Assembly: GCF_900104305.1 (NCBI RefSeq)
Contig: NZ_FNJC01000006.1
Location: forward strand, 1-64,000
Source of the DNA: Filomicrobium insigne
GTDB lineage: Bacteria; Pseudomonadota; Alphaproteobacteria; Rhizobiales; Hyphomicrobiaceae
Direction of reading: 5' to 3'
DNA length: 64,000 bases
This document shows positions 312 to 7,498 of the stretch, one piece after another. A program made the translations under genes and the position numbers. Under the pieces are notes generated by a model, which saw only the letters and a program-made list of their open reading frames with translations, was not told the origin of the DNA and ran no database searches. Numbering within the stretch: the stretch's first letter is position 1; each line of letters starts with the position of its first letter.

Positions 312-1979
<1,668 letters not shown>

Positions 1980-2042: not shown

Positions 2043-2174
2043 GTCATTTGAAGATCATCATCTGCACCTAACCCCAGAGCGCATTTGCAAAAAAATTGGG
2101 TCTTGTTCACACGCTCTTAAGACAGCGGAGGCTATGACAAAGGGGTTCCCACTCCAAATCTTTTTCAGCGTATT

Positions 2175-2510
2175 GTGAGTTCGAACAAAGTGTCTCGTCG
2201 CACCTTCCAAGTAAGGCGGCCTAAGCTGTCGCAGGCTACGGTGTTGCTTGCCTGCCTGAGTTTCACAGCTTACTTCGCCCACCACGCGATCCACGGCCGA
2301 CACGGTCTCGAGGCTCGCTCCAGATTGATCGATCGCTCCACTCTGTTGGAGTTTGAGATCAAGAGTCTCGAGGCCGCCAGGTCGGCACTGGCTCGCGACG
2401 TGGCACTCCTCAATCAAAATCCGCCGCACCCAGATCTCGTCGAAGAGATTGCGCGCGGCGTACTGGGCTACGCCCATCCCTCAGACCGGATTATCGTGCT
2501 CCGCGAGTAA
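2175..2510 (+). CDS. ftsB: FtsB/DivIC-type septum formation initiator
   Basis: A 111-residue bitopic protein with a GTG start, a basic N-terminus (about 17 residues), one membrane segment (ATVLLACLSFTAYFAHHAI) and a periplasmic coiled-coil stretch rich in Leu, Glu and Arg, ending in the family-typical PDLVEEIARGVLGY followed by acidic/hydrophobic residues. FtsB bridges FtsL and FtsQ in the divisome. Identity rests on architecture and on its place directly after eno, which is conserved in Alphaproteobacteria; sequence conservation in this family is low. No strong ribosome-binding site is visible before the GTG. Alternative name: DivIC-like protein. Confidence 0.85.
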   Translation: MSSNKVSRRTFQVRRPKLSQATVLLACLSFTAYFAHHAIHGRHGLEARSRLIDRSTLLEFEIKSLEAARSALARDVALLNQNPPHPDLVEEIARGVLGYAHPSDRIIVLRE

Positions 2511-2719: not shown

Positions 2720-3043
2720 ATGGATATCGACGACGACCTCCCCGAGGAACTCGACCTACCCGACGGCGTCGTCGAGGCGGATGAAGCTATCGAGGTCCTT
2801 CGTGCCTGGGTCGCTGACGGGGCGTTGCACGTTATCTTTGATCCCGAAACATTCCATGATGATGTATCCGAATGGGGCCGCCTCCTCGCCGACGTCGCTC
2901 AGCATGTCGCCAATGCCGTCGAGATGGACGGCCAAATGAACCGCTCCGACGCGCTGGCCCAGATGTATGATGCATTCGACCGCCACGTTCATTCAGACCA
3001 ACCAGGAACGACCGGTCGGATAAAAGGTCGCACGGAGCACTGA
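2720..3043 (+). CDS. DUF5076 domain protein
   Basis: About 107 residues, acidic and soluble. I chose the internal ATG at 2720 because GAGGAG lies about 10 bases upstream; an earlier ATG at 2684 in the same frame has no such site. The pattern LPDGVVEADEAIEVLRAWVA, then HVIFDPETF, then WGRLLADVAQHVANAVE matches what I know of DUF5076, a small domain usually encoded inside alphaproteobacterial pyruvate dehydrogenase clusters, between pdhB and pdhC. Its function is unknown. Here it sits 27 bases ahead of an E2-like gene but without E1 genes, so it looks like a retained part of that cluster. The family call is from memory of the pattern. Confidence 0.7.
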   Translation: MDIDDDLPEELDLPDGVVEADEAIEVLRAWVADGALHVIFDPETFHDDVSEWGRLLADVAQHVANAVEMDGQMNRSDALAQMYDAFDRHVHSDQPGTTGRIKGRTEH

Positions 3044-3070: not shown

Positions 3071-4498
3071 ATGCCCATCCAGATCCTGCTGCCGGCACTA
3101 CCCCCACGGACGCCACCCGCGCGCTTAATGCGCTGGCGCGTGTCCGTCGGCCAGCAGATTGCTGTTGGTGACATCATTGCCGACATCGACACCGGACAAG
3201 CGACAATCGAGGTCGAATCCACTGTCTCAGGCCGCATAAAGCGCATTTTGGTGCCGGAGAACACGTGGGGCATGCCGCCTAACGTTGCCCTGGCGCTTCT
3301 TGATCCCGACGATAGCGGCGTTGAGAGCAGCGGCGAGCCGACTGACGAAGTTTGGCAACCTCTCGATGCGCCGAGACGCAGTGCGACCAAGCCTCAAAAT
3401 CAACAGACGCGAACACCCTCTCCCGAACCGAAACGGCAAGCCGCCCCCCAACGGGAACAGAGGGCCACGCAGCCACCGCAAGACACTCACTCGCGCTGCT
3501 CGAAGCATCTCGCTTCACCCCGGGCGCGCAGCTTGGCAAAAACCTACGCCATTGATCTGGACATGGTGTGCGGCTCAGGGCCTGGAGGCCGGATTGTTAG
3601 CCGGGATGTCGAAGCTGCGCTCAAAGCGAACCAAGACACGCCAAGCGAAAAGCCCGCACCGAAGAGGCGTCAAGTTGAACATAACAAGTCGCCAAGCGCC
3701 AATGAGACGGCGTGGGAAGCCGAGATCAGGCCCTCACTTGCGAGTCCAGCACCATCGCCGCCAAAAGTCAGAGAGATTCCTTCCTCTCCCGTGACACCAC
3801 ATATGGCCACGCGCGCCACCTTGCTTGAAAGAGCGGCACAGGAAATCCCGTGCGCGCGCCTCACGATTGACTGCATCGTGGATGGCTTGCCTCGCCTGCG
3901 ACGCGTCCATAGCGGTCAATCGGGAGATTTCGCCACTCTGCCCGCCGCGACTTCACCTGGCGTCGTTTTCGCAAAGGCGTTGGGCTTGGCGCTCTATGAT
4001 ATCCCAGCCGCGAACGTCACGTGGACACCAAAAGCGCTGCTGCATCATCAAACAGCAGACGTCGCCTTCGCAGTCCTTATTCCAGAACTGCAAGTCTCAC
4101 CGGTCATACGTAACGCCGACACGCTGACTTTGGATGAGATTGCCGAAACCGTAATCGACCTAACGCAGCGCGCCCACACCAATAATTTGGAGCAAGCTGA
4201 ACTAGAAGGTGCCGCCGCCGTTATTCTTGACCTCGGCGCCTATGGCGTACGCTCATTCGAACCCGTGGTCGAACCTCCACGCGCGCTCAGCTTAAGCCTC
4301 GGGGCAAAGGAACACCGGCCAATAGTAATTGACGGCCAAATCCGCAGCGCGTCGATAATCAACTGCACATTAACATGTGATGTTCGCGCGATACCGATCG
4401 CTGTCGCCGCCGAATTGCTCGCAACTATCAAGGCCTTAGTCGAAGAGCCCATGAGCATGCTCAGCCCTCCGATCGGCACTCCTCTCTTCAGTGTCTGA
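3071..4498 (+). CDS. Pyruvate dehydrogenase E2-like pseudoenzyme (lipoyl Lys and catalytic His/Asp lost)
   Basis: 475 residues with the full E2 layout. Residues 1-80 form a lipoyl-type domain; about 150-188 form a peripheral-subunit-binding domain (ASPRARSLAKTYAIDLDMVC, then GSGPGGRIVSRDVEAAL). A long Pro/Ser/Lys-rich linker follows, then from about 245 an acyltransferase-fold domain. The usual ETDKATMEVE lipoylation motif reads DTGQATIEVE, so the modified Lys is Gln43. The catalytic DHRAVDG reads DVRAIPI (residues 437-443), so His becomes Val438 and Asp becomes Pro442. The protein should therefore neither carry lipoate nor transfer acyl groups. The frame is intact and the fold-determining residues are kept, so it is not an obvious pseudogene. 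A scaffold or E3-binding-protein-like role is inference. E1 and E3 genes are absent from the window. Confidence 0.8.
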   Translation: MPIQILLPALPPRTPPARLMRWRVSVGQQIAVGDIIADIDTGQATIEVESTVSGRIKRILVPENTWGMPPNVALALLDPDDSGVESSGEPTDEVWQPLDAPRRSATKPQNQQTRTPSPEPKRQAAPQREQRATQPPQDTHSRCSKHLASPRARSLAKTYAIDLDMVCGSGPGGRIVSRDVEAALKANQDTPSEKPAPKRRQVEHNKSPSANETAWEAEIRPSLASPAPSPPKVREIPSSPVTPHMATRATLLERAAQEIPCARLTIDCIVDGLPRLRRVHSGQSGDFATLPAATSPGVVFAKALGLALYDIPAANVTWTPKALLHHQTADVAFAVLIPELQVSPVIRNADTLTLDEIAETVIDLTQRAHTNNLEQAELEGAAAVILDLGAYGVRSFEPVVEPPRALSLSLGAKEHRPIVIDGQIRSASIINCTLTCDVRAIPIAVAAELLATIKALVEEPMSMLSPPIGTPLFSV

Positions 4499-4659: not shown

Positions 4660-5103
4660 ATGTATCAAGGCAAACTCGTTTTAGGACTCCTGCTGGGTAG
4701 CGCACTAGCTCTCGGTGGTTGCGCCGCTGATGGTACCAGTTTGCTGACGACCGGATCGTTAGGCGGCAATGAAACCAAAGTTGCCGAGAGTGATCGCATC
4801 AGCCCCGAGTGCATGAAGCTCATGGCGAAGATCCAGGAGCTGCGCCAGGAAGGAACCCCGGATCGGGTTGAAAAGATTTCCAGTGGCAAAAGCTCGACGG
4901 TGAATATCAAGCGCTCAGCACTCGCGAAACTGACCGAGTTGGATAAGGCGAACAGCGAGTTTCAATTGAAGTGCTCGAAGCTCGCCCCGACAACCGCAGC
5001 CGCGGCGACACCAGCTCCGGCAGCCGGAGCGACGGCGGCGCCAGCCAAGCAAGCAGCTACGACCGCAACAAACACCCAGCAAGCTGCCGCTGCAGCTCAA
5101 TAA
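4660..5103 (+). CDS. Small lipoprotein with Cys-framed helical domain and Ala/Thr-rich tail
   Basis: 147 residues. The signal peptide ends in a lipobox (LALGGC) with lipid-modified Cys21, so it is anchored to a membrane, probably the outer one. The mature core runs from Cys51 to Cys105 and is predicted helical and charged, with the pattern C-x13-G-x-P-x2-VE-x4-G-K-S. The last 40 residues are Ala/Thr/Pro-rich and look disordered. The core matches the lipoprotein encoded at 5355-5660 residue for residue at the C, G, P, VE, G and S positions, so the two are paralogues. I do not recognise a named family. Its own strong terminator follows, and a 160-base gap precedes it, so it is probably monocistronic. 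Confidence 0.8.
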   Translation: MYQGKLVLGLLLGSALALGGCAADGTSLLTTGSLGGNETKVAESDRISPECMKLMAKIQELRQEGTPDRVEKISSGKSSTVNIKRSALAKLTELDKANSEFQLKCSKLAPTTAAAATPAPAAGATAAPAKQAATTATNTQQAAAAAQ

Positions 5104-5126: not shown

Positions 5127-5168
5127 CACATTGGCGGGCCGGATTCCTGGCCCGCCAATGTGCATTTT
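5127..5168 (+). terminator. Rho-independent terminator after the first lipoprotein gene
   Basis: A perfect 14-bp stem (CACATTGGCGGGCC with its complement) around the 8-base loop GGATTCCT, followed by CATTTTG. It begins 24 bases after the stop of the 4660-5103 gene. Confidence 0.9.
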
Positions 5169-5354: not shown

Positions 5355-5660
5355 GTGTCGAAGTCTACTGCAGACACGCGTTTCATGAAATTTTTGGTCG
5401 TGGCCGCAGCAGCGATGCTGATTGCTGGTTGCGCCAATGAGGGTGGCAGTGGCTACGGCGATCCGGGTGCGAGAGCGTTACCGGCGGGTGAAAGCTGCAA
5501 ATCCATTCGTGCGGAACTCAACCGCATGGACGCACGCGGAATTCCGTCCAAGGTAGAAGCTGTAAATGCCGGACGCAGCGTCTCCTCAAAAGATCGCGAA
5601 CTCGCGAACCGCTATAACTCGCTTCTCAATAGTTATTTGGGTGCGCGCTGCCACGTGTAA
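5355..5660 (+). CDS. Small lipoprotein, paralogue of the upstream lipoprotein
   Basis: 101 residues from a GTG start chosen because GGAGGG lies 5 bases upstream; the open frame extends further up without a better site. The signal peptide ends in the lipobox LIAGC (Cys26). The mature part has Cys48 and Cys99 bracketing a charged, probably helical domain that shares the spacing C-x13-G-x-P-x2-VE-x4-G-[KR]-S with the preceding lipoprotein but lacks its Ala/Thr tail. The two Cys could form a disulfide in the periplasm. Function unknown. It is separated from its paralogue by a terminator, so it should have its own promoter. Confidence 0.8.
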   Translation: MSKSTADTRFMKFLVVAAAAMLIAGCANEGGSGYGDPGARALPAGESCKSIRAELNRMDARGIPSKVEAVNAGRSVSSKDRELANRYNSLLNSYLGARCHV

Positions 5661-6395: not shown

Positions 6396-6496
6396 ACGGG
6401 GACGAGACTACGGCGGACGGAGGGGTTGATCGGAGGGCCTATTTAGCCACCTAATAGTGCGTCACAGCACACAACATAGGTTTGCCCCCGATCATC

Positions 6497-7498
6497 ATGG
6501 TTACTGTTATCGACAAGGTTTCGCCGCCGGAACGCCCGCGCCACCCGGAAAAGGCCCACCGGCCTGACACGGAACGCTTACCCAAACCGTCATGGATCCG
6601 GATCAAGGCACCCAGTTCGGACGCGTTCGTCAAGACGCGCGCCATAGTGCGCGAACACAACCTGCATACCGTCTGCGAGGAAGCTGGCTGCCCCAATATT
6701 GGTGAGTGCTGGACGAGCCGTCACGCTACCATGATGATCATGGGCGACACCTGCACGCGCGCCTGCGCATTCTGCAACGTGAAAACCGGCCTTCCTTTAC
6801 CGCTCGACAAGAACGAACCCGCACGCGTCGCCGATGCCGTTGCGCGCTTGGGGCTACGCCACGTCGTCATCACGTCCGTGGACCGAGACGATCTACCTGA
6901 CGGCGGCGCCCTTCATTTCGCTCACGTCATCGAAGCTATTCGCGCGGCAACACCCAGCACAACAATCGAGATCCTTACCCCGGATTTCCTGCGCAAGGAT
7001 GGCGCACTTGAAACGGTCGTGGCAGCCAAACCCGATGTGTTCAATCACAACCTGGAAACAGTCCCGAGCCTCTATTTACGTATCCGTCCAGGCGCGCGGT
7101 ACTTCCACTCTTTGCGCCTCCTTCAACGCGTCAAAGAACTCGACCCCTCTATGTTCACGAAGTCAGGGATCATGGTGGGACTGGGTGAAACACGCGAAGA
7201 AGTCCAACAGCTCATGGACGATCTACGCTCTGCGAATGTCGACTTTCTCACCATTGGCCAATATCTGCAGCCCACGCTGAAGCACGCAGAGGTGAAACGT
7301 TACGTGCACCCCGAAGAATTCCACAGTTATGAACGTATCGCTCTGACGAAAGGCTTCCTGATCGTTTCAGCAAGCCCCTTTACGCGTTCCAGCCACCACG
7401 CAGGTGAGGACTTCGCGCGTCTACGCGCTGCCCGCGAGGCTCAGCTGCAATCGCTCAACCAGCGACAAACAGCCGGTTGCCCAACGCCTGCACCCTGA
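6497..7498 (+). CDS. lipA: Lipoyl synthase
   Basis: Radical-SAM enzyme inserting two sulfurs at C6 and C8 of protein-bound octanoate, cytoplasmic. About 333 residues from the ATG at 6497; a TTG at 6482 is possible. Both iron-sulfur clusters are visible: the auxiliary [12 protein letters not shown] (C-x4-C-x5-C) and the radical-SAM CTRACAFC (C-x3-C-x2-C). The C-terminal RSS motif that ligates the auxiliary cluster is present as [10 protein letters not shown]. Its usual neighbour upstream is lpd of the pyruvate dehydrogenase cluster, which is missing here. All residues needed for activity are kept, so the cell lipoylates other proteins even though the nearby E2-like protein cannot be modified. 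Confidence 0.97.

Follow-up and report, generated by a model that had tools for sequence, protein, structure and literature searches.

The animal E3-binding protein (E3BP; protein X, PDHX) bears lipoate, and the E2 and E1 that accompany it are active. PMC10156792 describes E3BP as a eukaryotic gene encoding a non-catalytic E2 that recruits dihydrolipoyl dehydrogenase (E3), counts an E3-specific subunit-binding domain and a fungal M3-like motif among its features, gives the reason for its inactivity as not known, and treats the peripheral-subunit-binding domain (PSBD) of bacterial E2 as unselective between E1 and E3. Among the matches listed from the open-licence PMC literature, which include PMC10156792 and PMC6067878, we found no report of a dead bacterial pyruvate dehydrogenase (PDH) E2. 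An original prediction had pointed to such a gene in the window (the whole 64,000-nucleotide stretch of DNA analysed here), describing a protein that aligns end to end with alphaproteobacterial PdhC, including lipoyl, subunit-binding and acyltransferase-type regions, and that has lost both its lipoate site and its catalytic residues. We refer to this protein as the window PdhC.

The open reading frame is complete, running over 475 codons from ATG to TGA with no stop or frameshift, and its product matches three Pfam domains in the lipoyl-PSBD-acyltransferase order of E2p enzymes: Biotin_lipoyl (residues 19-64; 29.8 bits, cut-off 22.1), E3_binding (residues 147-181; 47.3 bits, cut-off 23.7) and 2-oxoacid_dh (residues 240-464; 132.2 bits, cut-off 23). 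The best NCBIfam model is TIGR01349, at 250 bits under its cut-off of 445. The gene and its parts are as follows.

3071..4498, + strand: pdhC-type E2-like gene with catalytic residues lost (open reading frame, Pfam, alignment)
3071..3304, + strand: lipoyl-like domain, residues 1-78 (Pfam; pLDDT block means 88-97)
3197..3199, + strand: Gln43 codon CAA replacing the lipoylated Lys (DNA, alignment)
3503..3616, + strand: PSBD, residues 145-182, the best conserved domain (12/16 conserved columns)
3785..4462, + strand: acyltransferase-type domain, residues 239-464 (Pfam, predicted structure, structure matches)
4226..4228, + strand: Leu386 replacing Ser of SISNLG (DNA, alignment)
4382..4384, + strand: Val438 (GTT) replacing the catalytic His (DNA, alignment)
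4394..4396, + strand: Pro442 (CCG) replacing Asp of DHRxxDG (DNA, alignment)

The predicted losses are all present in the DNA. Where E2p enzymes read ETDKATMEVE around the lipoyl Lys, the window PdhC reads DTGQATIEVE, and the DHRxxDG motif that carries the catalytic His and Asp has become DVRAIPI. A fourth loss, beyond those predicted, is that of Ser386, which aligns with the second Ser of canonical SISNLG and is replaced by Leu (ILDLG). Ser558, His610 and Asn614 of the Azotobacter E2 are called catalytic in the title of 1dpb, and the motif suggests that position 386 is equivalent to Ser558. Elsewhere in the family, the lipoyl Lys is present in 25/25 PdhCs that have an in-frame lipoyl domain (29 others were aligned) and the catalytic His in all 29 others of the same alignment.

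Such intact orthologues had been proposed as a sign of sequencing error. This does not hold: 79 of the 162 columns that are invariant in 14 canonical PdhCs are altered in the window PdhC, so sequencing error is excluded. More generally, an assembly artefact has nothing in its favour but the odd sequence itself, whereas an identity of ~35-40% to full-length family PdhCs cannot arise from error, the 475-codon frame is open, and the 3.85 Mb genome, in 10 contigs, is listed as 100% complete. A different alternative is that the protein continues to catalyse or to carry lipoate by means of other residues. Its domain folds are predicted to be intact, but the site Lys, His, Asp and Ser are all replaced and an E1-beta partner is missing, and we give this idea hardly any credence.

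The surroundings of the gene are those of a PDH operon from which other members have gone.

693..1979, + strand: eno, left anchor of the slot (similarity, synteny)
2160..2510, + strand: ftsB/DivIC-like gene, start approximate (Pfam, synteny)
2720..3043, + strand: DUF5076 gene, separated by 27 nt from the E2-like gene that follows (Pfam, synteny)
4660..5103, + strand: lp1, putative lipoprotein (from its start sequence), conserved right neighbour (synteny)
5127..5162, + strand: terminator-like hairpin of 16 pairs after lp1
5355..5660, + strand: lp2, second small putative lipoprotein, conserved (synteny)
6482..7498, + strand: lipA-like gene, right anchor (similarity, synteny), which we take to be lipA (lipoyl synthase)

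In relatives whose cluster is intact the order is eno-ftsB-pdhA-pdhB-(DUF5076)-pdhC-lp1-lp2-lpd-glsB-glsB-lipA-ratA, with some genes missing from some reference stretches, and in the window it is eno-ftsB-DUF5076-E2-lp1-lp2-glsB-glsB-lipA-ratA. The window PdhC thus occupies the ancestral pdhC slot, and pdhA, pdhB and lpd are absent from the operon; in an intact cluster (L180 of genome G091) DUF5076 likewise lies between pdhB and pdhC. The gene is a real but disabled pdhC that, judging by synteny, was inherited vertically. Its position exactly between DUF5076 and lp1 makes horizontal transfer into the slot unlikely, and an origin by either artefact or transfer seems to us very improbable. Stretches beyond eno were read at 47 loci, window included; 20 of these show only eno, or eno and ftsB, and are uninformative on the cluster. 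Among the loci read, pdhC without pdhA and pdhB occurs in the window only. A signal scan found no promoter-like site.

In all five congeners with the cluster found (L040-L044), lp1 directly follows DUF5076 and there is no E2 gene. The sole eno match of congeners G001 and G003 is 44% identical, congener G007 (67% complete) has no eno match, and DUF5076 was not matched in these three genomes. E2 matches in G001 and G003 were rejected as slot genes: they are short and E2-like and adjoin an E1-beta-like gene, and we read them as of the acetoin type. DUF5076 itself has outlasted pdhABC in g1, g10 and g22 (window 2720-3043; L180, L187, L218, L199) and probably does not depend on the slot PDH for its function.

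The original prediction had also raised the matter of a second, normal PDH cluster, and the genome encodes one. AceE (889 aa; PF17831), AceF (436 aa; above the TIGR01348 cut-off) and an Lpd of 595 aa (N-terminal lipoyl domain; above the TIGR01350 cut-off) are contiguous in an AceE-AceF-lipoyl-Lpd operon, which would serve as the pyruvate dehydrogenase. The genome has two E2 genes besides the window gene, SucB (L001) and AceF (L002), both with intact motifs, and a second Lpd adjoins sucB. A strong AceE match is found in 9/9 genomes of the window's genus. In one of them, G002, there are two AceE matches (G002:C1:284386 and 4395566) with identical scores, each beside an E2 match of identical score, which suggests a recent operon duplication or an assembly overlap. 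PdhB (E1-beta) is absent from the window genome, because PF02779 matches at three places only and NCBIfam assigns these to transketolase, DXS and 2-oxoglutarate dehydrogenase E1. With no PdhB left, the protein is unlikely to tether E1 as its ancestor did, one of the roles that had been floated for it; E3 may still be bound through its PSBD.

The window PdhC is strongly diverged. Identity among the 14 canonical family PdhCs is 55.5-78.8%, against 33.9-38.6% between them and the window PdhC. In 103 family genomes full-length matches are ~35-40% identical and short partial ones reach 45%. At the order level a match at 1e-40 is present in 337 of 397 genomes, full-length proteins among the matches listed being ~32-41% identical, and of 453 matching plasmid records the ten listed are ~30-33% identical. 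The family and order genomes hold no close relative among the matches listed, and a search of 84,980 GTDB species by peptide patterns, which may miss near records, confirmed none. The terminal branch of the window PdhC measures 9.26 (median 0.31) and 6.89 (median 0.34) in two trees. In a tree of eno, ftsB, lipA and ratA the window's end branch is 0.26 (median 0.14); the acceleration is thus specific to the pdhC gene, its neighbours' branch being ordinary. AU tests rejected none of three groupings for the placement of the protein (p 0.246, 0.246, 0.308). An additional E2 found in g5 and G015 genomes (L222-L226) has the lipoyl Lys and DHRVVDG intact and was taken as a different paralogue.

The open frame and preserved PSBD had been put forward as arguments for selection, and this argument stands in part: it holds against plain neutral decay and agrees with the dN/dS of relatives, but the substitution pattern of the window PdhC itself is flat over site classes. 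In neutral simulations matched for invariant-site loss, the mean number of stops was 7.6 and 0/560 runs were stop-free. An earlier simulation gave a minimum of 1 stop without mutation bias, and a mean of 5.5 with a minimum of 0 under a GC-favouring bias. The domains of the window PdhC carry a single 3-residue deletion, which leaves the frame open. Synonymous preference is +0.056, as against -0.098 under neutral choice (sd 0.024; maximum of 1000, -0.026). Prolines introduced into helices and strands number 2.2 against a neutral 6.5 (sd 2.6; fraction 0.037), and the altered invariant sites have a mean BLOSUM score of -0.39 against a neutral -0.74 (sd 0.17), which makes them somewhat more conservative. 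The PSBD keeps 12/16 conserved columns, as predicted, whereas the lipoyl-like and acyltransferase-type domains together keep 84/185 (Fisher p 0.035). G093 and G077 tend the same way (p 0.013 and 0.055, respectively); the combined PSBD p of 0.0017 is not relied upon, since these proteins share ancestry.

Set against this, values over the site classes are 0.510, 0.587, 0.615 and 0.559 for the window PdhC and 0.505, 0.545, 0.571 and 0.612 for neutral simulations, so that every class of column (invariant, two-state, three-state, variable) is kept at the neutral rate. Hydrophobic invariant sites that changed are still hydrophobic in 16/31 cases, no excess over the neutral 0.45 (sd 0.08). Active-site columns are not singled out (10/28 kept against 50/112, p 0.52), which lends no support to a loss specific to the active site. 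As in a pseudogene, site-specific constraint has been lost; stops and frameshifts, the other mark of a pseudogene, are absent. The evidence for selection on the window PdhC itself is thus mixed. Judged from the sequence, its old E2 constraints are gone and its reading frame is kept, a combination to be expected of a binding protein without catalysis, of a new recruit, or of a gene whose frame polarity keeps open.

The last of these would be a dying gene without protein function, in which residues drift and stops are selected against only because message left untranslated here would have a polar effect on lp1 downstream. The site-class pattern, as flat as that of neutral simulations, and the very long branch are what such a gene would give; the slots of five congeners lack the E2 gene; and the gene starts 27 nt after DUF5076, with the strong + strand terminator-like hairpin lying beyond lp1 and none listed between the two genes E2 and lp1. 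A dying gene sits less well with the kept codon preference, the shortage of prolines in secondary structure, the more conservative changes at invariant sites and the better-kept PSBD, and the disabled PdhA and PdhB of g11 and g20 have dN/dS of 0.15-0.29, values that keeping a frame open does not by itself produce. We regard it as a plausible account, though clearly short of an even chance. Recruitment to a role unrelated to E3 or PDH, after release of the E2 constraints, could also explain why the old site constraints are gone while the frame and codon use remain, and why a long branch goes with an ordinary rate in the neighbours (0.26, median 0.14). We identified no new motif in the protein, however, and found no close relative in the searched genomes that might reveal a new constraint, and we think such a recruitment unlikely.

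The reading that we tentatively favour, at not quite even confidence, is that the window PdhC is an inherited non-catalytic E2 remnant that is retained, if at all, for binding, with E3 the likely partner. The vertically inherited pdhC of the ancestral alphaproteobacterial operon would have been left behind after pdhA, pdhB and lpd were lost. The protein would still be made with an E2 fold, comprising a lipoyl-like domain, a PSBD and a trimer-forming core. Its surviving activity would be binding, most likely of E3 through the PSBD, a proposal that rests on 16 columns, and it might then tether or sequester E3 without catalysing anything itself, possibly while associated with AceF cores. A structure prediction, which had been recommended as a check, is in keeping with this reading: an AF2 model built from an alignment of 55 has a pLDDT of at least 90 for 280/475 residues and is E2-like, and the matches listed by Foldseek are E2 proteins or cores, with the human E3BP model 6h60 at rank 50. 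As the AF2 alignment consists of canonical E2s, the confidence is partly borrowed; the model indicates that an E2 fold is compatible with the sequence and is no independent proof of folding.

Beyond the original prediction, which did not extend to the loss of pdhA, pdhB and lpd or to the AceE-AceF operon, we found disabled PDH subunits in related genomes. Four family genomes carry in the pdhC slot a PdhC without the lipoyl Lys. G075 and G078 read ETATATMEVE and retain DHRAVDG; the catalytic His is lost as well in G093 (ETATATMEVE, DQRAIDA) and G077 (ETENETIEIE, DRRLVDG), and also in a partial PdhC copy of G092 (DQRIVDG). The exchange of DK for AT in the lipoyl hairpin (ETATAT) is seen in the PdhC of G093 (L181) and of G075 and G078 (L186, L221) and in the PdhB of G068 (L211). 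The PdhCs of G093 and G075/G078 do not group together in the tree, and this recurrence suggests convergence or exchange.

Among 23 aligned PdhB copies, the lipoyl Lys is present in 11 (G091, G075, G078 and eight reference clusters, not all of which adjoin eno) and missing from 12 (G093, G077, G076, six of g11, two of g20, and G022), the latter all lying in the slot (12/12). The slot contains pdhA and pdhB but not pdhC in G076, g11, g20 and G022; in g11 (L082, L192, L193, L209, L210, L211), a genus that presumably includes cultured species, lpd is missing as well. E1 residues, whose roles we take from the human enzyme, are also affected: in 6/6 g11 genomes the His of FCHLY in PdhA has become Pro, with the GDG Asp retained, and the E1-beta His has become Asp, and the GDG Asp is replaced by Lys or Gln in g20 and by Ala in G076. 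In g14 and g15, PdhA stands without pdhB or pdhC in 4/5 loci, and the three copies aligned are 24-30% identical. The His of RGH is kept in 24/24 aligned PdhAs; those of L196, L215 and L197 (g14, g15) keep it though the GDG Asp is gone. AceE (PF17831) is present in G091, G093, G075, G076, g11 and g20. G077, G078 and G022 have an altered slot PDH too but no PF17831 match, and the idea that an AceEF takeover explains all cases does not extend to them.

The intermediate states hint at an order of events. In G075 and G078 (L186, L221) the PdhC Lys is lost from a cluster with an intact PdhA and a PdhB that retains the lipoyl Lys, so the PDH of these genomes possibly runs on the E1-borne lipoyl domain alone. 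In G039 (g9; L229 3955-6441) PdhC has 343 aa and no lipoyl domain and starts 30 nt after a pdhB whose product keeps the lipoyl Lys; it is a natural E2 lacking a lipoyl domain, and other g9 matches start near residue 140. Because G075, G078 and G039 keep the PdhB Lys only, a PdhB-borne lipoyl domain seems to make the PdhC-borne one dispensable. The PdhC lipoyl Lys or lipoyl domain would have been lost first, with the PdhB Lys still present (G075, G078, G039), the PdhB Lys and the E2 His next (G093, G077), and the genes themselves last. Inactivation occurred more than once, because G093 is sister to the intact G091 (support 97/88 in the PdhC tree and 100/96 in the eno+ftsB+lipA+ratA tree) and g13 is mixed for the PdhB Lys, which is kept in G075 and G078 and lost in G076 and G077.

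Some of these subunits are under purifying selection. NG86 dN/dS over 15 pairs of the six g11 genomes is 0.149-0.237 for PdhA and 0.178-0.291 for PdhB, compared with 0.068-0.164 for eno and 0.174-0.453 for lp1; these pairs share branches and are non-independent, and many dS values are near 1. The losses are common to all six genomes, so by parsimony the values describe evolution after the loss, and the disabled PdhA and PdhB of the six g11 genomes are under purifying selection. The g20 pair gives 0.165 and 0.201 for PdhA and PdhB. Rows for 'pdhC' in g11 and g20 were dropped, as they represent PdhB picked up via its lipoyl domain. For PdhC, the G075/G078 pair has a dN/dS of 0.112 (dS 0.57), which is no sign of selection on a dead E2 because the complex may work via the PdhB lipoyl domain, and the G075/G077 pair one of 0.308 (dS 1.58, near saturation).

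The larger result is the repeated retention of disabled PDH subunits among related bacteria, in some cases clearly under purifying selection. It is a real, though not an even, possibility that the native PDH operon of the family repeatedly became a non-catalytic 'pseudo-PDH' under purifying selection, with a structural or regulatory role, and that in the window gene its E2 has been reduced furthest, perhaps to something like a bacterial E3BP. Members of the family grade from intact PdhABC, by way of a PdhC lacking the Lys beside a lipoyl-bearing PdhB and then clusters with no usual lipoyl Lys, to solitary remnants, a natural series in which the g11 E1 subunits under purifying selection make non-catalytic use of PDH parts directly testable.

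Compared with alphaproteobacterial PdhC (E2p), the window PdhC has the same end-to-end alignment, domain order and gene position, but at 33.9-38.6% identity it has lost the lipoyl Lys and the active-site Ser, His and Asp. With eukaryotic E3BP, whose model 6h60_A it matches at 4.9e-27, it shares the E2-like domain order, a retained PSBD and, by sequence, an inactive acyltransferase-type domain, the first and last being features of E3BP in PMC10156792. It differs from E3BP in having neither a lipoyl Lys nor a cognate E1-beta, and in an origin that the pdhC-slot synteny places within a bacterial family instead of the eukaryotic lineage given for E3BP in that paper; on its sequence we class it neither as E3BP nor as a working E2. 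Nearest to it are the disabled PdhC, PdhB and PdhA of its relatives (G075, G078, G077, G093, G076, g11, g20, G022), which share the slot, the loss of the lipoyl Lys and mostly that of the catalytic residues too, whereas these relatives, unlike the window genome, keep pdhA and pdhB.
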